DNA of 64,000 nucleotides from Alphaproteobacteria bacterium (GTDB lineage: Bacteria; Pseudomonadota; Alphaproteobacteria; Sphingomonadales; Kordiimonadaceae), in contig JAJFIU010000110.1 in the NCBI GenBank assembly GCA_021774695.1, forward strand, positions 1 to 64,000, written 5' to 3'. The notes below the pieces were generated by a model, which was given only the letters and a program-made list of their open reading frames with translations, was not told the DNA's origin and made no database searches. Positions 1,803 through 17,080 of the stretch are shown piece after piece (the stretch's first letter is position 1; each line of letters starts with the position of its first letter). A program made the position numbers and the translations under genes.

Positions 1803-2636
1803 ATGGAATTTCTTAATAGTGAATCGATCAACTGGGAAGAGTTGACGGCACAAGGTATCGACTTAGGCCTGCTCATTCTCGGTGCGTTGGCGGTTCTGTT
1901 TGTTGGTATGTGGTTGGCAGGGTTTGTTGAGCGCCGTCTGCTGAAGCTATTTGCCAAAAGCGATAAAATTGACGACACGGTTTCCTCTTTCATGGCAAGT
2001 TTGGGTAAATATCTGGTTGTTATCTTCACCGGCATTGCTCTTCTTGACCAGTTCGGCGTTGAAACCACCAGCGTTATTGCATTGCTGGGTGCTGCGGGTC
2101 TGGCTATTGGTTTGGCATTGCAGGGTACGCTTTCGAACTTGGCAGCGGGTGTGATGCTGTTGATTTTCCGTCCGTTCAAGGTCGGTCAATTTGTACAAGT
2201 TGGCGGCGAGGCCGGGGTTGTTAAAGCCATTTCACTGTTCACAACCATGATGGATACCGGTGACAACGTGCGAATCATGATCCCGAACGGGTCGGTTTGG
2301 GGTAGTTCAATCTCCAACTTTAATTTCCATGATACCCGCCGCCTGCAAATTGTATTTGGTATCGGCTACGACGATAATATTGACAATGCGATGAAGGCCA
2401 TCTCGGATATCATTGCAGCAGATGATCGCTGTTTGGTCGACCCCGAACCGTTGGTTGCAGTGACGGAACTGGGCGATAGTTCGGTCAACATCATGGTGCG
2501 GGTCTGGTGCTCGTCCGGTGACTATTGGGCGCTTAACTGGTCGCTTTTGAAAGCGGTTAAAGAAGGCTTTGATGCTAAAGGTGTCAACATTCCTTACCCG
2601 ACGCGCACTGTCTATAACCACAACGCGTCAGTGTAA
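1803..2636 (+). CDS. MscS-type small-conductance mechanosensitive channel
   Basis: I place the start at the ATG at 1803, preceded by AGGGAG; the frame stays open upstream to 1740 but that extension has no ribosome site. The 277-residue product has about three N-terminal membrane helices. The pore-lining third helix is glycine/alanine-rich (LLGAAGLAIGLALQGTLSN), followed by the FRPFKVGQFV motif and the soluble beta and alpha/beta C-terminal domain with MIPNG. These are hallmarks of minimal MscS channels, which release solutes on hypo-osmotic shock from the inner membrane. It is monocistronic, followed at once by a strong terminator. Confidence 0.93.
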   Translation: MEFLNSESINWEELTAQGIDLGLLILGALAVLFVGMWLAGFVERRLLKLFAKSDKIDDTVSSFMASLGKYLVVIFTGIALLDQFGVETTSVIALLGAAGLAIGLALQGTLSNLAAGVMLLIFRPFKVGQFVQVGGEAGVVKAISLFTTMMDTGDNVRIMIPNGSVWGSSISNFNFHDTRRLQIVFGIGYDDNIDNAMKAISDIIAADDRCLVDPEPLVAVTELGDSSVNIMVRVWCSSGDYWALNWSLLKAVKEGFDAKGVNIPYPTRTVYNHNASV

Positions 2637-2647
2637 TTAGCTGGCAG

Positions 2648-2684
2648 AAGTATAGCGGGTTCAAGTGGCCCGCTATACTTTTCT
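2648..2684 (+). terminator. Rho-independent terminator of the MscS gene
   Basis: Twelve-base perfect arms (AAGTATAGCGGG at 2648-2659 and its complement at 2669-2680) around a nine-base loop, followed by a short T run. The stem begins 11 bases after the mscS stop codon. Confidence 0.85.
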
Positions 2685-2694
2685 GGGCTATCCA

Positions 2695-2745
2695 CTAAAC
2701 TTTTCGGAGAGCTGACTAAACTTTCTGCACGTCTTTCTAAACTTT
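2695..2745 (+). repeat. Three CTAAACTTT direct repeats with exact 21-bp period
   Basis: CTAAACTTT occurs at 2695, 2716 and 2737, exactly 21 bp (two helical turns) apart, between the mscS terminator and the M13 peptidase gene. The repeats would all lie on one face of the helix, as expected for a cooperatively binding regulator. No regulator can be assigned. Confidence 0.6.
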
Positions 2746-2901
2746 AGTATCAAATCACACCAAATTGTTTTCACTATTATTGACTCGTGCCGCGGTTCTT
2801 ATACCGTGCCGTGCGGAGTGTCTTGTCAGGCTGGCCAGATGTCTCACCGGCGCGGCAGTAAATGCTGTGCCTCATCACAAATAATAAAATGGAGGGGACC
2901 G

Positions 2902-4989
2902 ATGAAATTTTTCCTGAATACGTCCGTTGCAGTTGCCGCGCTTATGATTGCCGGCTGCTCGGATGATCAGCAAGCAACTACCGACGCAAGCGACGCAACT
3001 GAAGTTGCAGGCGCGATGGCCAAACCTGAGCTGGGCGCATGGGGAGTTGACCTCACGGCGCGCAATGAAAGCGTGAAGCCTGGCGATAACTTCTTTCAGT
3101 ATGCGGCTGGTTCTTGGCACGACACATTTGAAATTCCGGCGGATAAAACCAGTTACGGCGCCTTTACCGTGCTCGGCGATCGCAGCCGTGATCGCACTAA
3201 GGTAATTATCGATGAATTGACGGCGGGCACCTTCGACGATGGCACGGTCGAACAGAAAATCGCCGATTACTATAACAGCTATATGGACGTAGAGGCGATC
3301 AACGCGCTTGGTATTGACCCGATCCGTCCGCTTTTGGCTGATATTGCCGCCGCTGAAAATGTGGCAGATATTACTGTCCTGTTTGGCCGCGCTGCGACTG
3401 ACAATCTAACATCTCCTATTACATTTGGTCTGGGGATCGACCGGCAAAATCCTGACCGCTATCAGTTTAACATGGGCATCGGCGGCATGAGCCTGCCAGA
3501 CCGTGATTACTATCTTGAAGATACGGATAAATTCAAGGAAACGCGGGCAGCTTATGTGGCGCATATTGTCGAGATGCTGGGTTTTGCCGGCATCGAAGGC
3601 GCTGAGGCGAAAGCCGAGGCTATTCTTGCTATTGAGACCAAACTGGCGGAAAAACAGTGGCCGCGTTCTGAACGGCGTAACCGGGACAAAACACTTAACC
3701 CTGCTGATTATGCTGATTTTAAAGCACAGTACGCCGGATTTGACTGGGACAGCTTCTTTGGCGCGCGTGGCATGGCCGGCATCGAACGGCTGAATGTCTC
3801 GTTTCCAGACTCTGTGGCTGCCACTATTGATATCATCAACGAAGTCTCGGTCGATGATTGGAAAGCTTACCTAACCTACAATGCACTCTCAAACCATGCG
3901 GGCATACTGAGCGAAGAGATTGACACCGCCAACTTCAATTTCTTCGGGAAAACTCTCCGTGGTCAACCGCAGCAACGAGAACGCTGGGAACGTGCAACAC
4001 GCCGCGTCGGGGCGCTCAACGCACTCGGTGAGGCCATTGGCCAGGTATATGTGAAGCGTTACTTCCCGGAATCATCCAAGCAACAAATGGTGCAGCTCGT
4101 GGAAAACCTGAGCATTGCTCTTGGTCAGCGTATCGATGGTCTGGACTGGATGGGCAGTGAGACCAAAGCCAAGGCGCGGACAAAACTGTCTACTTTTAAT
4201 CCGAAGATCGGTTACCCGGACAAATGGCGCGACGTATCTGCGATTAAAATTGTCAAAGGCGACCTGTTTGCCAATGCAAAAGCCATCGCAGCGGTTAATC
4301 ATCAGCGCTCAATTGACCGTCTAACCAGCAAAACAGACAAAGACGAATGGTTCATGCCGCCGCATCAGGTGAATGCTTACTATAACCCGCAGTTTAACGA
4401 GATCGTGTTCCCTGCGGCGATTTTGCAGGCACCTTTCTTTGATCCAGGCGCTGACTTGGCGGTGAATTACGGTGGCATCGGCGCGGTAATCGGTCATGAA
4501 ATGGGCCACGGCTTTGATGACCAGGGCTCCAAGTCCGATGAAAAAGGCATCCAGCGTAATTGGTGGACTGAAGACGACCGGGCTGCCTTCGAGGTGCGTA
4601 CCACCATGCTCGGTGAGCAATATAGTGGCTTCGAGGCACTACCGACCTATTTTGTCGACGGCAAGTTTACCATGGGCGAAAACATCGGCGATGTTGGTGG
4701 TTTGGCGATGGCGTATCATGCTTACAAGCTTGCGCTTGGTGGTGAGGAGGCTCCGATTATAGACGGTCTTACCGGCGATCAGCGTTTCTTCCTGGCGTGG
4801 GCGCAGGTGTGGCGGGTGAAGTACCGCGACGAGGCGCTTATCAATCGATTGAAATCCGACCCGCATTCTCCGGCTCAGTTCCGGGTCAACGGTGTCGTGC
4901 GCAATATGCAGGAATGGTATGACGCATTCAGCGTGAAAGAGGGTGATGCCCTGTATCTGCCGCCAGAGGAGCGTGTTTCCATCTGGTAG
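2902..4989 (+). CDS. pepO: M13 family zinc metallopeptidase (PepO/neprilysin-like) lipoprotein
   Basis: The start is set at ATG 2902, behind GGAGGGG; the frame extends to 2806 without a ribosome site. The 695-residue product begins with a lipoprotein signal (lipobox LMIAGC) and so is probably anchored on the periplasmic face. The M13 N-terminal domain follows, then the catalytic C-terminal part with NAYYNPQFNEIVFPA, the zinc motif HEMGH within VIGHEMGHGFDDQG, and ENIGDVGG supplying the third ligand. The C-terminus ends in Trp, as is usual in M13. These enzymes cleave peptides of limited size. Copies of its 3' end recur as fragments at 5848-5915 and 6697-6744. Confidence 0.94.
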   Translation: MKFFLNTSVAVAALMIAGCSDDQQATTDASDATEVAGAMAKPELGAWGVDLTARNESVKPGDNFFQYAAGSWHDTFEIPADKTSYGAFTVLGDRSRDRTKVIIDELTAGTFDDGTVEQKIADYYNSYMDVEAINALGIDPIRPLLADIAAAENVADITVLFGRAATDNLTSPITFGLGIDRQNPDRYQFNMGIGGMSLPDRDYYLEDTDKFKETRAAYVAHIVEMLGFAGIEGAEAKAEAILAIETKLAEKQWPRSERRNRDKTLNPADYADFKAQYAGFDWDSFFGARGMAGIERLNVSFPDSVAATIDIINEVSVDDWKAYLTYNALSNHAGILSEEIDTANFNFFGKTLRGQPQQRERWERATRRVGALNALGEAIGQVYVKRYFPESSKQQMVQLVENLSIALGQRIDGLDWMGSETKAKARTKLSTFNPKIGYPDKWRDVSAIKIVKGDLFANAKAIAAVNHQRSIDRLTSKTDKDEWFMPPHQVNAYYNPQFNEIVFPAAILQAPFFDPGADLAVNYGGIGAVIGHEMGHGFDDQGSKSDEKGIQRNWWTEDDRAAFEVRTTMLGEQYSGFEALPTYFVDGKFTMGENIGDVGGLAMAYHAYKLALGGEEAPIIDGLTGDQRFFLAWAQVWRVKYRDEALINRLKSDPHSPAQFRVNGVVRNMQEWYDAFSVKEGDALYLPPEERVSIW

Positions 4990-5987: not shown

Positions 5988-6506
5988 CTACAGGCCAAGT
6001 TCTATGTTTATCGGACGGCGTTCGATGAATTGTGTTATCTGAAAAATCTTGTCTATATTTTGGTGGTCGCTGGCCAGCGGGACAAGTAGAACCGTCACCG
6101 ACTTGATTGAAACACTTGGGCCAATATAGGACAGCGTATCATACAGTGGCTTTTTCTTGTCGACCACGGTTTCAAGCTGTTCCCAGCGCTTGCTGGCTGG
6201 GCTTCGCTCTACCACATCGGACAGATTTTTGCCGGTATAATCGTGGCGATTGTAGTCCCGTATCACTGTACCAAATAGCCGGAACTGGAAATCAAGCGGC
6301 GAGCGCAACACGTCAAAAACGATCGCATGTGACATCAGGCGGCCAAAATGGTGGGGCGGAAAGTCAGCGCGTGATGGAATGCCGCCGTCGATATCGGCGC
6401 TCCGGCTTACCCACCGTGTAAGAAAGGCCTGTTGGTAATCCGACATTGCGGGCAAGTCGTCATTTTGAACGTATTTTCGTTCAAAAGGCGAGAAGCGGTT
6501 TTCCAT
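5988..6506 (-). CDS. PAS-domain protein, copy 2 (PAS_5-like)
   Basis: A 172-residue paralogue of the protein at 5125-5643, with the same blocks in the same order (FLTRWVSRSADIDGG, FGRLMSHAIVFDVLRS, FQFRLFGTVIRDYN, TGKNLSDV, PLYDTLSYIGPSVS, VTVLLVPL). The ATG at 6506 is preceded by GGAG at good spacing; in-frame ATGs up to 6542 lack one. No effector or membrane segment is present, so it may act as a separate sensory module. The flanks (a LysR remnant upstream and a pepO fragment beyond) repeat the arrangement around copy 1. Confidence 0.82.
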   Translation of the reverse strand: MENRFSPFERKYVQNDDLPAMSDYQQAFLTRWVSRSADIDGGIPSRADFPPHHFGRLMSHAIVFDVLRSPLDFQFRLFGTVIRDYNRHDYTGKNLSDVVERSPASKRWEQLETVVDKKKPLYDTLSYIGPSVSIKSVTVLLVPLASDHQNIDKIFQITQFIERRPINIELGL

Positions 6507-6577
6507 TTTTTGCTCCAGACCCCCCATCAAGATACCCATCAAACTTATTACATTGAGTGTGCGAAGTCGAAGACTTT

Positions 6578-6702
6578 TTAACCCGGCGGTATGGTGCCCA
6601 GCAGCCAGCCCCGGAAAGCAGCGACTTTTTCTGTCTCTGCCAAATGGTCGGGGTAAACCAGATAATAAGCACCCTGGCTATGTACGGGCGGATCGAAGGG
6701 TG
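6578..6702 (-). pseudogene. 3' remnant of a LysR-type regulator gene, copy 2
   Basis: The minus strand encodes YLVYPDHLAETEKVAAFRGW followed by LLGTIPPG and a stop. Bases 6621-6702 match 8606-8687 of the intact LysR gene with only two mismatches in 82 bases, much closer than copy 1. The match stops at AGGGTG, where the sequence switches to pepO. This indicates recent duplication or gene conversion followed by truncation. Confidence 0.8.
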
Positions 6703-6744
6703 ATGCTATGTATCTGCCCCGGACAACGAATGTCTATCTGGTAG
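6697..6744 (+). pseudogene. 3' fragment of the pepO gene, copy 2
   Basis: Starting in the AGGGTG shared with the LysR remnant, the plus strand reads GDAMYLPRTTNVYL, against GDALYLPPEERVSIW at the end of PepO, and then the same CTGGTAGGATGG string that holds the pepO stop codon. Similarity continues through the terminator region to about 6800 (TTTCAGTTGCTGTCTCCGGC against TTACAGTTACTGTTTCCGAC). Confidence 0.75.
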
Positions 6745-6829
6745 GATGGTTTTCAATAACGAAATGGCTGGTTTCAGTTGCTGTCTCCGGCCTTTCTTAT
6801 TCTGAACTATATACTTAACTGGCCATTGG

Positions 6830-7546
6830 CTATACTGAGGGCCAATAGCCAGCTATCATTTGGCAAGCAGACTCAATATCTTTTTGCCTTTTAGTGTTAG
6901 AAGTTGGAGCTTGGAAAGCTTCACCATGTTGAATATCTATCGACATACAAAGCTTATTTGCGACTGGCAAATCATCCTTCAAATTCTTGTCAATATGCAT
7001 TCTAATCAAGGTCGCCACATATAAACCAATATCGCGTCTTTTACTTTTGGCGGCATCTGTCTCTGTATTGTCTTGTGACATTTTTAGAATGGCCGCACCA
7101 ATATTTTTATCCCCTTTTATGACAGCCTCCACCATTAAGTCGGCATATACTGACACTTGGACACCAGCAACCATCAATTTAGCTTGCTTTTTAGGCGCTG
7201 ATAGAAAGTCAAACGGAACAAGCTGGTTGGACATGCCCTGTAGGCTATGCAAAACATCTACCGAATTGGACGCATCATTTTGCATGAGCGCCGAGTAAGC
7301 TGAATCTTCTGCGCGTTGTTCAAACATTTTTTCTACTTCTAATAGGGGATTCACATCTCTGGCTCGATCTGCTAAGAATGCCCTTATTACTGGCCTAACA
7401 TCTCGATATCGGATCATTGGCGGCGGTGTAGGATTTTTAGCTCGTTTGAGTATTCCGAGCCTTGCCGTGTCAGAAGATACCATATAGAGACCTAATTCGT
7501 TCGCCGATATACGCGGAGCTTTATGGACTTTGGGAGTTTTTACCAT
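6830..7546 (-). CDS. Hypothetical protein with KAPRIS motif
   Basis: I favour the ATG at 7546 (238 residues), which has GAGG nine bases upstream; the frame is open to 7621 but that extension lies inside the opposite gene. The protein is soluble, probably mostly helical, and rich in Lys and Ala. The N-terminus is basic (MVKTPKVHKAPRISANELGL), then RYRDVRPVIRAFLADRARDV and a region of predicted helices. I do not recognise a characterised domain; N-termini of the form KAPRISxNxLxxY occur, from memory, in uncharacterised accessory-region proteins. The start codon overlaps that of the divergent gene at 7545. The local base composition is AT-rich relative to the backbone, consistent with transfer. 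Confidence 0.65.
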   Translation of the reverse strand: MVKTPKVHKAPRISANELGLYMVSSDTARLGILKRAKNPTPPPMIRYRDVRPVIRAFLADRARDVNPLLEVEKMFEQRAEDSAYSALMQNDASNSVDVLHSLQGMSNQLVPFDFLSAPKKQAKLMVAGVQVSVYADLMVEAVIKGDKNIGAAILKMSQDNTETDAAKSKRRDIGLYVATLIRMHIDKNLKDDLPVANKLCMSIDIQHGEAFQAPTSNTKRQKDIESACQMIAGYWPSV

Positions 7547-8556: not shown

Positions 8557-9444
8557 TTATTGGGTGTTATCTGTTGCCTCACCGAGCAACCAATTACGAA
8601 ATACTGCGACTTTTTCTGTCTCTGCCAAATGGTCGGGGTAAACCAGATAATAAGCACCTTGGCTATGTACGGGCGGACCGAAGGGTGCAACCAATTGGCC
8701 ACTGTCCAGATCATCTCGCACATACATTTCTGGCAGCACCGCAACACCCAAGCCAGCGCGGACGGCTTCTATCATCATGGTGAAATTCTCAAACCGGGTT
8801 CCTGTGATGGTCCCGCCAATGCCATCCGAGGGCTCGCCCAGCCACTCGTTCCACGCCGTTGGTCGGGTGCGCATGGTTAGACGGTCAAAATCAAGAATGG
8901 GCGACTTGGCGTTGGCGTTGGCTAAGTCAGAGGAGACCACGGCTACAATTGTTTCATTCTGAATGTGGTGCGCCGTATATCCTGGCCATTGTCCGTCGCC
9001 GTATTGCACCGACACATCGGTGTTGGCGGCGACAAAATCATCGTGGGTTAGGCCGGTGACAATATTGATCTGAATATCCGGGTGGGCTGCAGTGAAGCCA
9101 CTGAGGCGCGGGATTAGCCAGCGGGAGCCGAATGTGGGCAGCAAGCCCAGCGTCAGCACTTTATCGTAAGCCCCCCAGGTGATCATTTTGAGGGTTTGTG
9201 CTTCCAGTTCGGCTAGCAGTGGGCCAACCGCCTCGGCGAACTGTTTGGCAGCCTCGGTGGGGATCAGGCGTTTGCGTTCTCGCCGGAACAGGGGTTGGCG
9301 AACAAATCCCTCCAGATTTTTGATCTGGCGGCTTACGGCGCTCTGCGTCATGTTCAGGCTTTCAGCCGCACGGGTTACGTGGCCACCGCGCATAACGGCT
9401 TCAAAGCATTCTAGAGCGGTTAATGAGGGTAGTCGGCGTTTCAT
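8557..9444 (-). CDS. LysR-type regulator (GcvA-like), likely of the glutarate operon
   Basis: A 295-residue protein. The N-terminal winged helix-turn-helix is clear (LPSLTALECFEAVMRGGHVT, AAESLNMTQSAVSRQIKNLE), followed by the periplasmic-binding-like effector domain with LLPTFGSRWLIPRL and the C-terminal SQGAYYLVYP. The spacing and LPSLTALECFEA start resemble the GcvA subgroup. It is divergent from gcdH, and a TTGAT-N11-ATCAA box lies between them, so it probably activates gcdH and the CoA-transferase in response to a glutarate- or lysine-derived effector. Its last ~85 bases are duplicated almost perfectly at 6621-6702 and more distantly near 5740-5815. Confidence 0.9.
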   Translation of the reverse strand: MKRRLPSLTALECFEAVMRGGHVTRAAESLNMTQSAVSRQIKNLEGFVRQPLFRRERKRLIPTEAAKQFAEAVGPLLAELEAQTLKMITWGAYDKVLTLGLLPTFGSRWLIPRLSGFTAAHPDIQINIVTGLTHDDFVAANTDVSVQYGDGQWPGYTAHHIQNETIVAVVSSDLANANAKSPILDFDRLTMRTRPTAWNEWLGEPSDGIGGTITGTRFENFTMMIEAVRAGLGVAVLPEMYVRDDLDSGQLVAPFGPPVHSQGAYYLVYPDHLAETEKVAVFRNWLLGEATDNTQ

Positions 9445-13352: not shown

Positions 13353-13374
13353 GTTTGTATAACCGCTTTGAAGC

Positions 13375-13500
13375 TTACGGCTTGTCTTCAAACTTCACAC
13401 CGGGCTGCGGCGCGGTGTTAATGCTTAACTCGAAAATATCCGGTCTGTAATAGCGAGTTGTCGCATCGATCATCTGCCGCTTTAACCGGTCGCCGTTTGA
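13375..13500 (-). pseudogene. 3' remnant of a second nitrilase gene
   Basis: The minus strand encodes YYRPDIFELSINTAPQPGVK followed by FEDKP and a stop, matching the nitrilase C-terminus at 16100-16170 (YSRPDIFELNVNTAPQPGVK then FEDKS). The bases 13381-13441 are close to identical to 16106-16166. Further in, the frame DRLKRQMIDATTR is diverged from LRKQREAWQTLDTDGH, so this is a paralogue and not a simple copy. The rest of the gene is missing. Together with the intact nitrilase it brackets the island at 13.5-16.1 kb. Confidence 0.75.
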
Positions 13501-13881
13501 TGTCGCTGAGCGGGCTAGAAGCTCTATTTTGTATCATGGCTTTAGTACTGAGGTAGGGTTGCTAATATGGACAGACATTGTACCTCGAATACAATGGTGC
13601 TTTTCCCGTCTTTCGACGGTGCCAGTTTTCTCCCGTAGGGTTGCAGGTTCATATGTCATCCTAAGTTATATTTTTTGCTTTAGCTGCGGTCAGGGGACAC
13701 TCCAATTCACCGGTTCATTTTATTATTTACTAAAACACAACAGCTATTTAATCAACCTATAGAGGTATAATGAGTCTATAAATTGTATTTATGGTTGATA
13801 TTCTGCTAATAGTTGTATATATAACATTAAGAGTAGTGAAACTATAGTCGATTCAACGCATGAATAATGGGGATTAAGATC
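13501..13881. other. AT-rich left flank of the Hint-protein island
   Basis: No credible coding frame. It joins the nitrilase remnant to the Hint gene. A TCAGGGGACACTCCAATTCA string near 13690-13709 resembles, from memory, leaders near small transposase genes, but no transposase frame is present. Confidence 0.4.
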
Positions 13882-15249
13882 ATGGTTAGAAATTGTTCCG
13901 GGGCGCACTGTAGCCAGGCAGACCCAGAAATTAATGCAGTATGTAAGAGCGAAGGGTGGGCGGTCGGGCACCCTGTTATCACACGAGATGCGAATGGCAT
14001 TTGTCTTTGCCATTGTTCGTGCATGGCGCTCGGAACACAGGTTAACGTGTCGCAAAATCAAACTTGGCCGGTAGAAAGCATTGAGGCTGGAGATTTGGTG
14101 TTAGCGGCGGGATCAAAGTTGGACTGGTCAGAGGTCGAGGTAAAATTTAGTGCCGGAACCACTGACGGCATACAGCCCTACACAATATATATAGTACATG
14201 AATTAGGTGACCTTATCGTTACTCCAGACCATTTACTGTTTCTGAAGTCCGGGAAACTGAAAAGAGCGTCACTGCTATCTACAACGGATGTTTTGCAGGA
14301 TAAAGATGGAAACGCCGTTGCTATAAAGAGTGTTACGACAGGCACTTACTATGGTGGCTTTCATCACATTGCTACGTCAAAAGATGACCCAAAGGGTAGT
14401 TTGCATAATCATTTGGTAGTAACAGCTGGCGTGATATCGGGAGACTATGCGCTTCAGCTATTCTATCCTGAAGGTGCTAAACCAAAAGAGTTATTTGATG
14501 AAACGCGGTCCGACGTGGTCGTGGGCACGGATGCATACGCAAAAAAACACGGTGCTTGCGCGGAGCCGAATTGCGGTGAGCATATTCACGGAAACGTATT
14601 GGTGGTGTCATCAATTGATCAATCACAAAATGAAAAGCAGTTTCAGCCAAGTAAGTTTGCGCGAGTATCCATACCCGATTTTGCACACTCATTTATAACC
14701 AAAGAAGACGCTAAAAAGCGCGCGAAAGTGGCAGTCTTTAGACCATTTTCAGACCCAGATGCGCTTGCATGGTCAGAGTATTTGGTGGAACAGCACAAAG
14801 TTTATTATCCTAACGTAGTATTTACCGTCGATTGGGAAAATGATGAAGTTAACGCGTATGCCTGGGTCCAGAACGGCGTCAGGCATGTGGCCATTTTGGG
14901 TGGCCTGATACGAGATAATTCGTTGGAACTTGAGGGTATTTCTGTGGTTGTGGCCCATGAGGTCGGACATTTGTTCGGTGGAAAACCATCCCACCCAGGA
15001 GGGCTGTCTTGCGAAGGGCAAGCAGACTATTATGGTGTCAGAACCGTGATGCGGAAGGTCTGGTTTGGGAAATTTTATGCTGATATGGCCCTACCAGGCA
15101 TTGATCAAATGGCAGAATTTTTCGGAGTTCCAAATAACAAGGGTTCAAATACTGGGCCAGGAGGATGTGCGCACCCACCAGGAGCTTGTCGTATTTTCAC
15201 CTATAATGCCGCTGTTGATTTACGATCTCGTCCAAGCTGTGCTGGATAG
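13882..15249 (+). CDS. Hint-domain / HEXXH metalloprotease fusion protein
   Basis: The preferred start is ATG 13882, nine bases after GGGG (455 residues); ATG 13867 is an in-frame alternative. Residues 1-46 form a cysteine-rich lead (C5, C10, C21, C41, C43, C45). A Hint (hedgehog/intein) domain begins at C47 (CMALGTQV) with AGDLVLAAG, the block-B motif TPDH at 114-117 and a GGFHHIATS segment. No intein-style C-terminal His-Asn is evident. The C-terminal half is a distinct domain with HEVGH at 359-363 and EGQADYYG from E378, the ligand pattern of M48-like zinc proteases. Hint domains often release an adjacent effector by self-cleavage, so this may be an autoprocessed protease or polymorphic-toxin-like effector. 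No signal peptide is seen. The gene is AT-rich and 10 bases precede its neighbour. Confidence 0.72.
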   Translation: MVRNCSGAHCSQADPEINAVCKSEGWAVGHPVITRDANGICLCHCSCMALGTQVNVSQNQTWPVESIEAGDLVLAAGSKLDWSEVEVKFSAGTTDGIQPYTIYIVHELGDLIVTPDHLLFLKSGKLKRASLLSTTDVLQDKDGNAVAIKSVTTGTYYGGFHHIATSKDDPKGSLHNHLVVTAGVISGDYALQLFYPEGAKPKELFDETRSDVVVGTDAYAKKHGACAEPNCGEHIHGNVLVVSSIDQSQNEKQFQPSKFARVSIPDFAHSFITKEDAKKRAKVAVFRPFSDPDALAWSEYLVEQHKVYYPNVVFTVDWENDEVNAYAWVQNGVRHVAILGGLIRDNSLELEGISVVVAHEVGHLFGGKPSHPGGLSCEGQADYYGVRTVMRKVWFGKFYADMALPGIDQMAEFFGVPNNKGSNTGPGGCAHPPGACRIFTYNAAVDLRSRPSCAG

Positions 15250-15259
15250 GGTTTAACAG

Positions 15260-15778
15260 ATGGAAGAAACAAAGCCGTCGTATAATGACACTGCTGTGCT
15301 GGAGGAACGCCTTGGCGTTTCTTTAGCTACAGCTGTGAAAGAAAGAGTGATCCAAGAGCCGTGGCTGGCTCACCACTTGTTGGTAGTTTCCGAGGATGCC
15401 GCGCTGTTGGAAAAACTGCTTGATAAACTGACGTTTGAAACGAACAAAGATAAAAAATCTAGATTTTCCGAAATCCCGCAAACATCTCTTTCTCCAGCAA
15501 AGGCATTGAATGCGATAAAAGCGGTTGCTGGGGCGGTTGCAACCAAATCCAAACGTGCCAGCGCAGAGTTGCGGCAAATAAGATTATCTGCTTGCCATTC
15601 CTGCCCCAATTTAAAGTCGGCGCTAGGGAGAGAGCTTTCGACAGGCATAGAAAAGATAAATCTATGTTCTCTCTGTGGCTGTGTCGTGGAGCTAAAAGTC
15701 AGAATTTTAGAAGAGAAATGCCCTGGAACCTCTTCGTTAGATAGCTCAAAAAACCGTTGGGGAGAGCCTCTTAAATAG
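15260..15778 (+). CDS. Cysteine-cluster protein, partner of the Hint protease
   Basis: A 172-residue protein beginning 10 bases after the Hint gene, so almost surely co-transcribed. The first ~105 residues look helical, with a Lys/Ala-rich stretch (KALNAIKAVAGAVATKSKRA). The C-terminus carries C111-x2-C114 and then C135-x2-C138-x-C140 with C153-Pro, in the context LCSLCGCVVELKVRILEEKC; this resembles small zinc-ribbon tails seen in phage and accessory proteins. Possible roles are an adaptor, an immunity partner or a protease substrate. I do not recognise a named family. Confidence 0.62.
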   Translation: MEETKPSYNDTAVLEERLGVSLATAVKERVIQEPWLAHHLLVVSEDAALLEKLLDKLTFETNKDKKSRFSEIPQTSLSPAKALNAIKAVAGAVATKSKRASAELRQIRLSACHSCPNLKSALGRELSTGIEKINLCSLCGCVVELKVRILEEKCPGTSSLDSSKNRWGEPLK

Positions 15779-15779
15779 C

Positions 15780-16061
15780 TTATAGTGTAATCTCATCATC
15801 AAGAATTCTGTCGACGGCAAGTGTTACATGTGAATCTGAGTGGGCTGATCGATGTCCTTCAATATGCCCTTCTACAAGCTTCGGTCTTGAGTAGCACAAA
15901 CTAATAAGCTCTTCATATGGTTCGGCGAAGTTACTGTCACTGAAGCTTATGCGAGAAACCTCCGTTAGAACTCCGGTATTAACATCTGTGACATTCCATG
16001 AAAAACATGGCGGCTTAAAACACCTAAGCCCATTATCTTCTAATAAATATAATTTCAACAT
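15780..16061 (-). CDS. Small hypothetical protein
   Basis: A 93-residue frame that ends one base from the preceding gene's stop, on the opposite strand. ATG 16061 has GGAG three bases upstream; ATG 16070 is the alternative. The sequence (KLYLLEDNGLRCFKPPCFSW, EVSRISFSDSNFAEPYEELI) is protein-like with beta-strand character but matches nothing I know. It completes the AT-rich island before the nitrilase gene. Confidence 0.45.
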   Translation of the reverse strand: MLKLYLLEDNGLRCFKPPCFSWNVTDVNTGVLTEVSRISFSDSNFAEPYEELISLCYSRPKLVEGHIEGHRSAHSDSHVTLAVDRILDDEITL

Positions 16062-16099
16062 GAACTCCATATACTAGATTTGTATTCCTGTGGGCCAGG

Positions 16100-17080
16100 T
16101 TAACTCTTGTCTTCAAACTTCACGCCGGGCTGCGGCGCGGTGTTAACATTTAACTCGAAAATATCGGGTCTGCTATAATGGCCGTCAGTGTCCAGTGTCT
16201 GCCAGGCTTCGCGCTGTTTGCGCAGGTCAATCGCTGCACTGACTATGCATGGTTTGTCAAAAACAGGGTCCGCCAGGTAACTGCCGTCTGCACTGACAAC
16301 GGCGCTGCCACCATTGTGGACAAAATCAGTTTCATCGCCGGGCATCGACGCCAGCATGGCGTGCGCCGCGGGTTCATCTGCACCCAATGAGTTGAAGCCC
16401 GCAACGATGTCGCCTTTGGTCATAATCGACCCGGCGGCAGCAACAGCGCAGCGTCCTTCAAAGGCATAATGGCGGCTTGCCACTTGGTGCATGTCTTTAA
16501 CAATTGGCCATTGGGCAATGTGCAAAAACTCATGCTGTGCGTGCATGGCAGCGCGGGCAAACGGCATCCAGTGCTCCCAGCAGATCAGGCTGCCGAGCAT
16601 GCCCCACGGCGTTTGAACCGTCTTCAGCATCGAGCCATCGCCGCGGCCCCACACCAACCGCTCGGTATAGGTGGGCACCAGTTTGCGGTGTGGGGTAGGA
16701 CTGTCTGCCCCCGGCGCGAAAGTGAATGTAGTGTTGTAGAGTGTTGCGCCAGCGCGTTCGTGGGTGCCCAGCACAATGTAGACGCCGAGATCAGTCGAAA
16801 GTTTCTGTATTCTAGCCAGATATTTATCGCCGGCAACAACGCTGTTGTCAGCCAGCAACCGGAACAGGGCTTTCGCGCCCGGGTCGTCCCACAAAGCGGC
16901 GTTCGGCGCAAAGTCTAACCACACCGGGTAACCGGGCAACCAGCACTCGGCGAAGGCCACGATATTGGCACCGGCTGCCGCCGCTTCAGTTATATGGGAA
17001 ATCGCCTTCTCGACGCTGGCTTCAAGGTTCAGAAAAACAGAGGCTTCCTGCACGATTGCGACGGTTGGGTTGTTGGTCAT
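16100..17080 (-). CDS. Nitrilase
   Basis: A 326-residue member of the carbon-nitrogen hydrolase superfamily, nitrilase branch. The catalytic triad is visible: Glu45 in FAECWLPGYP, Lys in HRKLVPTYTERLVWG, and Cys in GSLICWEHWMP. HYSRPDIFEL near the C-terminus is the conserved nitrilase tail. Such enzymes hydrolyse nitriles to carboxylic acids and ammonia in the cytoplasm; the substrate range cannot be read from sequence. It is divergent from the gamma-glutamyltransferase gene. Its 3' end is echoed by the decayed copy at 13375-13500. Confidence 0.92.
   Translation of the reverse strand: MTNNPTVAIVQEASVFLNLEASVEKAISHITEAAAAGANIVAFAECWLPGYPVWLDFAPNAALWDDPGAKALFRLLADNSVVAGDKYLARIQKLSTDLGVYIVLGTHERAGATLYNTTFTFAPGADSPTPHRKLVPTYTERLVWGRGDGSMLKTVQTPWGMLGSLICWEHWMPFARAAMHAQHEFLHIAQWPIVKDMHQVASRHYAFEGRCAVAAAGSIMTKGDIVAGFNSLGADEPAAHAMLASMPGDETDFVHNGGSAVVSADGSYLADPVFDKPCIVSAAIDLRKQREAWQTLDTDGHYSRPDIFELNVNTAPQPGVKFEDKS

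Follow-up and report, generated by a model that had tools for sequence, protein, structure and literature searches.

The stretch of DNA analysed here, 64,000 nucleotides of contig JAJFIU010000110.1 from a member of the Kordiimonadaceae (the window), carries two adjacent genes whose products, A and B, recur together in distantly placed bacteria. A comprises a cysteine-rich leader, a Hint domain and a C-terminal domain with a zinc-protease motif; B ends in a zinc-ribbon-like cysteine cluster. That the two genes constitute an accessory module of effector type is, in our view, as likely as not. That A is a self-processing, effector-like protein with a dedicated partner is supported by the data below, the self-cleavage itself, before Cys47, being what A would be expected to perform. 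A wider proposal is more tentative, and we hold it to be somewhat less probable than even: that the pair represents an undescribed module common to unrelated machines for protein delivery, namely Tc complexes, contractile tails and RHS proteins, and able to exist on its own, in which Hint cuts off or covalently transfers a swappable cysteine-rich leader, and the zinc-ribbon protein is an adaptor shared by A and at least one other class of enzyme. Hint domains in toxins are already known; the persistence of the Hint cysteine, the cysteine-cluster leader and a near-constant partner while the protease site repeatedly decays would suggest that the function shared by the members is Hint chemistry rather than proteolysis, and relatives set next to Tc, contractile-tail-like and RHS genes suggest an accessory step that protein-delivery systems have in common. 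No description of the pair was found among titles and abstract beginnings in open PMC, subscription journals and preprints being outside that scope; the pair is apparently undescribed, as a preliminary description of the window, made from the sequence by itself, had proposed.

The reading frame of A is open from 13867 to 15249 (+), 460 codons. We prefer the start at 13882 to that at 13867 because its ATG is preceded by GGGGA and because relatives begin close to this point (MVLRQC, MSLQQC); residue numbers below are those of the resulting 455-residue protein unless the 460-residue form is stated. The preliminary description had chosen the same start and had read from it a cysteine-rich leader, Cys47 as first residue of a Hint domain with TPDH, and an HEVGH...EGQAD domain, followed after a gap of 10 bp by a gene whose product ends in a CxxC...CxxCxC cluster; this layout was confirmed (Table 1), with six cysteines in the leader, TPDH at 114-117, HEVGH at 359-363 and EGQAD at 378-382. 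All six cysteines of B lie within residues 112-154 (112, 115, 136, 139, 141, 154).

Table 1. Coordinates, in the window, of the A and B genes, their domains and the insert that carries them
Feature	Position	Strand	Support
ORF (open reading frame) A: Cys-rich leader + Hint domain + HEXXH protease-like domain, 455 aa	13882..15249	+	
Cys-rich leader, residues 1-46 (C5, C10, C21, C41, C43, C45); predicted N-terminal fragment if Hint cleaves	13882..14019	+	
Hint domain, residues 47-188: Cys1 = C47, block B T114-x-x-H117, Asp188	14020..14445	+	fold match, conservation
C-terminal domain with HEVGH (359-363) and EGQAD (378-382), M48-like by Pfam	14806..15246	+	
ORF B: N-terminal helical part + C-terminal CxxC..CxxCxC..C zinc-ribbon-like cluster, 172 aa	15260..15778	+	phrog_13558 E 9.8e-9
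2.6-kb insert: A, B and DUF6748-like fragment; absent between VOC and nitrilase genes in four same-genus genomes	13453..16096	.	
Left copy of nitrilase gene 3' end, 86% identical to 16097-16177	13372..13452	-	
Right copy of nitrilase 3' end = end of intact nitrilase gene 16100-17080	16097..16177	-	

The link between the two genes, to which the preliminary description had drawn attention, held wherever relatives were collected. The full-length A set consists of 15 distinct genes (Burkholderia stagnalis and Paenibacillus are counted once, though each has two records); 14 aligned A proteins underlie the conservation and tree counts, and 12 rows the alignment of leaders and C-termini. B lies directly downstream of A in 14 of the 15. 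A tblastn search of plasmids with A returned nine records, six of them covering at least 80% of the query at 26-46% identity, and in each of these six (from Streptomyces, Burkholderia, Mycetohabitans and Paenibacillus) the A gene is followed by a B gene. When genome contigs were scanned with B alone as seed, 19 stretches matched and five loci were confirmed, two of them in species already found; all five have A directly upstream. With the same sample and completeness setting, full-length A and full-length B occur in the same three of 397 genomes of the phylum, the window's own included. Pairwise distances among the A and among the B proteins are correlated (Mantel r 0.88, reached by none of 9,999 permutations), as would be expected if the genes travel together.

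These genome searches score only each genome's best candidates at the first step, and absences from them are not absolute. The search of 397 genomes for A yielded 12 that passed E 0.001; nine of these were not counted, since their matches lay in other proteins and were confined to the Hint part or to the C-terminal tail. Six passed in a search of 395 genomes: full-length A in G571 (two genes) and G950, Hint-only matches in G857 and G951, tail-only matches in G925 and G684; two passed among 396, G570 holding A and G1094 a partial Hint match. Of 196 genomes searched with the single protein, the window's own was the only one to yield A, apart from a match in G041 (E 7.1e-4) that was dropped since it lies in a 657-residue ORF which we take to be HtpG-like. 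An origin of A in phages was considered and is not supported. A scan of viral contigs with A alone gave no relative, a three-row A alignment gave 131 pattern matches there of which none was confirmed, and tblastn in phages returned nothing either for the window's A or for that of Chitinophaga. The scan of genome contigs with A alone produced ten pattern matches, again with none confirmed.

The Hint domain predicted in the preliminary description was recovered by structure prediction, despite Pfam scores below cut-off (Hint, PF01079, E 0.0065; Hint_2, PF13403, E 0.16). The AlphaFold2 model, computed from the window protein and five relatives, is of low overall confidence (mean predicted local distance difference test score, pLDDT, 50.1; predicted template modelling score, pTM, 0.36); compared with solved Hint domains and inteins it gives a best Foldseek E value of 3.9e-8. 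Residues 47-188 align by VIA-align to the BIL domain of Clostridium thermocellum (2lwy) with Z 15.1 and a root-mean-square deviation of 2.4 over 130 residues, and the Hint region aligns to hedgehog (1at0 and 6tyy, Z 14.6 and 14.7) and to the RecA intein (Z 14.4). In the structural alignment rows Cys47 pairs with residue 1, and residue 188 with the chain end, of many inteins. Cys1, whose conservation the preliminary description had put forward as a check, is invariant in the 14 aligned A proteins, as are T52 and H177; the block-B His is present in eight, including the window's TPDH. The domain ends in SGD in the window, and position 188 is Asp in 13 of the 14 and Gly in one. Inteins end in Asn, with His before it, and A lacks the terminal Asn after His by which splicing inteins and A-type BIL domains are recognised; protein splicing would be unlikely here because residue 188 is Asp, not Asn, and cleavage or transfer at the N-terminal junction is possible. 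Hint domains akin to that of A also occur elsewhere: two loci encode stand-alone Hint-type proteins with neither cysteine-rich leader nor protease part (L056 9471-10070, 199 residues; L057 9577-10059, 160 residues), and one A protein (L055 8455-10443) has some 75 extra residues, as judged by eye, inserted in the Hint domain ahead of block B.

The cysteines of the leader are conserved. C10, C41, C43 and C45 are kept in all 12 aligned rows, C5 and C21 in over 90% of them, each being absent from one row, that of Paenibacillus, which has a much longer leader. The number of leader cysteines is even, between 6 and 12, in all 14 A proteins, and the numbers after Cys1 (2-8) follow no such rule; as the rows are related, this may be taken as a hint of paired cysteines or metal sites and no more. 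The plasmid of Streptomyces canus NBC_01002 carries two A copies that differ at 12 of 1407 nucleotides, all of them between nucleotides 22 and 129, and that are identical from the Hint Cys to the stop, with unrelated flanks. All 12 differences fall in leader codons and thus mark the border between leader and Hint as a module border. On this plasmid (L003; listed ORFs 2296-3702, 6010-7416 and 8694-9359) the two copies occupy 2296-3702 and 6010-7416, and there is also an ORF consisting of leader and Hint only.

The preliminary description suggested an effector, and the setting of many relatives is effector-like. Ten of the 15 full-length A genes stand beside Tc-toxin, contractile-tail-like or RHS genes, and nine of them are encoded with a Tc or contractile component, inside Tc or contractile-tail-like clusters; that in the window's genome is not. 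A TcA-type gene lies upstream of A in Burkholderia pyrrocinia, B. stagnalis, Mycetohabitans, Paenibacillus and two Chitinophaga loci, with a TcB-type gene downstream in four of these six. S. canus NBC_01585, S. fumanus and Nonomuraea share the order baseplate J, LamG, small protein, A, B, AHH. The first of these clusters has clear matches to baseplate J, wedge and hub; its candidate sheath matches a sheath family only at E 0.0035, and phrog_9590 (unknown) and phrog_511 (internal virion protein) better, so that the label contractile is only partly backed and we go no further than contractile-tail-like. An RHS-repeat protein adjoins A in G271. Elsewhere the neighbours are of other kinds: LamG proteins upstream in G415; a LysM protein, a collagen/kelch protein and a glycosyltransferase upstream in G950; and, near the two copies of S. 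canus NBC_01002, genes with LysM-like and BNR/sortilin-like matches. One of the G415 proteins (L026 6296-8635, 779 residues) combines a LamG stretch with a long part that has no Pfam match.

The C-terminal domain is less constant in its motif than in its presence. The M48-like protease of the preliminary description is a putative one in the window, where HEVGH and EGQAD are present and Pfam scores Peptidase_M48 just above cut-off (E 3.1e-4; 21.1 bits against 20.3; residues 314-370 in the 460-residue numbering, profile positions 22-77 of 186); it does not stand as a conserved activity of the family. The protease label rests on the motif and a marginal Pfam score, the list of structural matches to the model being filled by the Hint domain, so that the lack of zincins in it is no evidence. 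HEXXH is intact in four of the 14 aligned A proteins (the window, S. canus NBC_01002, G415 and the second Chitinophaga locus), always together with ExxAD, and these four fall in two parts of a FastTree tree of the 14 sequences. An active ancestor with repeated loss of HEXXH would fit this distribution, although with 14 sequences it is only suggestive. Because Cys1 is kept in 14 of 14 and HEXXH in four, we take leader, Hint and B to be the constant core of the family, and do not count protease activity as part of it. An association of intact HEXXH with a place outside machine clusters was considered and is not clean: the window, S. canus NBC_01002 and G415 fit, and the exceptions are the second Chitinophaga member, intact beside a TcA gene, and G950, which has lost HEXXH with no such genes in the stretch seen.

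The same figures bear on an alternative that we regard as less likely, though not negligible: that A is a structural or assembly factor of injection particles, in which Hint would link the leader covalently to a further component, the protease-like domain being a binding fold with dispensable activity. Loss of HEXXH in ten proteins that keep Cys1 would be explained, as would the recurrent position of A, flanked by TcA and TcB types or by LamG and AHH genes, and an extra C-terminal stretch of at least about 90 residues found in six of the 12 aligned rows and, by profile coverage, in two further members, which in B. pyrrocinia is annotated as Ig-like. The retention of HEXXH with ExxAD in two parts of the tree argues instead for retained catalysis, and the four particle marker families sought in the window's genome had no match there.

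B matches phrog_13558, and DUF6171 below cut-off (E 0.035); a fold search with it returned nothing (best E 7.4). Its relatives are found on nine plasmid records, of which six are those that also carry A. On two, from Sinorhizobium (L075 6472-8456) and Azospirillum (L076 6442-8528), the B relative lies directly behind an "alkaline phosphatase family" gene, without A; the Sinorhizobium gene belongs to PF04185, and the label of the Azospirillum gene comes from its annotation. A protein annotated as TPR in an Isosphaeraceae record has the zinc-ribbon part at its end. Matches of B in phages and viral contigs are short or weak, covering only parts of its C-terminal two thirds. Because B and its relatives stand behind genes for two unrelated enzymes, A and a phosphoesterase, the role of adaptor or chaperone would suit B more readily than that of a specific immunity protein. 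This makes it improbable that the two genes are a toxin-immunity pair, with A a protease toxin freed by Hint cleavage and B its specific inhibitor, as might be supposed from a small gene directly behind a toxin-like gene, from the near-constant pairing and from the Hint/BIL domains of polymorphic toxins such as class I CdiA (PMC4725963). B is retained in members where HEXXH is gone (10/14), and the C-terminal domain is the same in all 12 aligned rows, unlike the variable toxin domains of polymorphic toxins.

Several observations weigh against a two-gene effector module with a self-processing A. Copy 1 of A in S. canus NBC_01002 has no B beside it, and the leader of A, judged by eye only, shows no Sec-type signal. 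HEXXH is degenerate in most aligned members, and the block-B His is lost in six of the 14, one of which has an intact HEXXH (the second Chitinophaga locus), so that Hint chemistry too may have decayed in some. In the model of A pLDDT is below 50 over residues 206-348 and in part elsewhere, and most of the C-terminal half is without usable confidence. Finally, although the assembly of the window's genome is 90.7% complete, a search of it for SpvB, Baseplate_J, TcA_TcB_BD and Phage_sheath_1 gave nothing at E 1 or better, and hence no delivery machine is at hand; the module stands there as an acquired orphan, no Tc or contractile machine being recognised.

Taken as an effector-type module, the pair might work as follows. 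A would be made as a precursor, in which Hint converts the Ser46-Cys47 bond to a thioester and then cuts off or transfers the cysteine-rich leader, releasing the Hint-protease part. The leader, probably metal-bound or disulfide-paired, would recognise B or a carrier, and B would act as a general adaptor or chaperone rather than as an immunity protein. Where HEXXH is intact, as in the window's A, the cargo would be the C-terminal domain, probably as an active zinc protease; most relatives may have lost this activity and kept only the fold.

The window's A and B genes sit alone on their 2.6-kb insert, among genes that read as metabolic. Direct copies of 81 nt from the 3' end of the nitrilase gene bracket the insert (86% identity). 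The left one is a remnant: it continues into a short, degenerate stretch of nitrilase end, and its final bases look like those with which the native gene of G015 ends. The nitrilase gene was found in 14 of the 26 genomes searched, the window's own counted, and its surroundings were compared in seven relatives: in G015, G003, G006 and G014 the VOC gene adjoins the nitrilase gene and A and B are missing; CoA-transferase and nitrilase genes are neighbours in G007 and G004; and in G013 a few kb separate VOC from nitrilase, and their order differs. Neither A nor B has a match in any of these seven surroundings. Insertion driven by an integrase was considered; besides A, B and a 96-residue ORF the insert has no ORF longer than 92 residues, and A itself is no integrase. 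Lying between B and the nitrilase gene, the 96-residue ORF (15780-16070, -) resembles DUF6748 over profile positions 105-148 of 196 (E 1.3e-5; 25.4 bits against a cut-off of 27) and looks like a fragment. Promoter-like sites are near chance, five against a mean of 5.1 in shuffled sequences. The "AT-rich island" of the preliminary description is real and only mild: its G+C content, 0.448 against 0.508 for the window, is below that of every 2644-nt stretch sampled at 200-nt steps. An orphan insert in a low-G+C island is what recommended the other suggestion made there, an anti-phage defence module; PADLOC gives a best E of 0.055 for A and nothing for B, and relatives lie mostly in injection-machine clusters, which leaves that suggestion very improbable.

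Among known systems, the Hedgehog autoprocessing domain resembles A in its Hint fold and in having an N-terminal fragment ahead of Cys1; A is bacterial and differs in its N-terminal domain and its protease-like C-terminal domain. Hedgehog autoprocessing needs no terminal Asn. The BIL domains and PT-HINT pre-toxin domains of polymorphic toxins, class I CdiA for example, share with A the Hint fold, the catalytic Cys1 and a place ahead of an effector-like C-terminal domain, and the BIL domain of one Pseudomonas syringae CdiA is active in autoproteolysis according to earlier work cited in PMC4725963. The Hint domain of A differs from these in lying near the N-terminus behind a cysteine-rich leader and in having Asp in place of the terminal Asn, and the protein differs in its conserved, not variable, C-terminal domain and in a partner that is family-wide and not immunity-like. 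Bacterial teneurin-like proteins have HINT-like C-terminal domains, alike in Hint-type fold and toxin setting, in which the Hint-like part is the C-terminal toxin domain; the portion of PMC13018210 consulted mentions no cysteine-rich leader or partner. With M48 peptidases (PF01435) A shares HEXXH followed by ExxAD; it matches 56 of 186 profile positions, has just 14 residues from HEXXH to the Glu, and belongs to a family in which most members have lost the motif. B shares its C-terminal cysteine cluster with zinc ribbons of the phrog_13558/DUF6171 type, adding a conserved helical N-terminal half and a tie to A. Finally, in nine of the 15 cases A and B are encoded within Tc or contractile-tail-like clusters, without themselves being TcA, TcB, TcC or known tail proteins.
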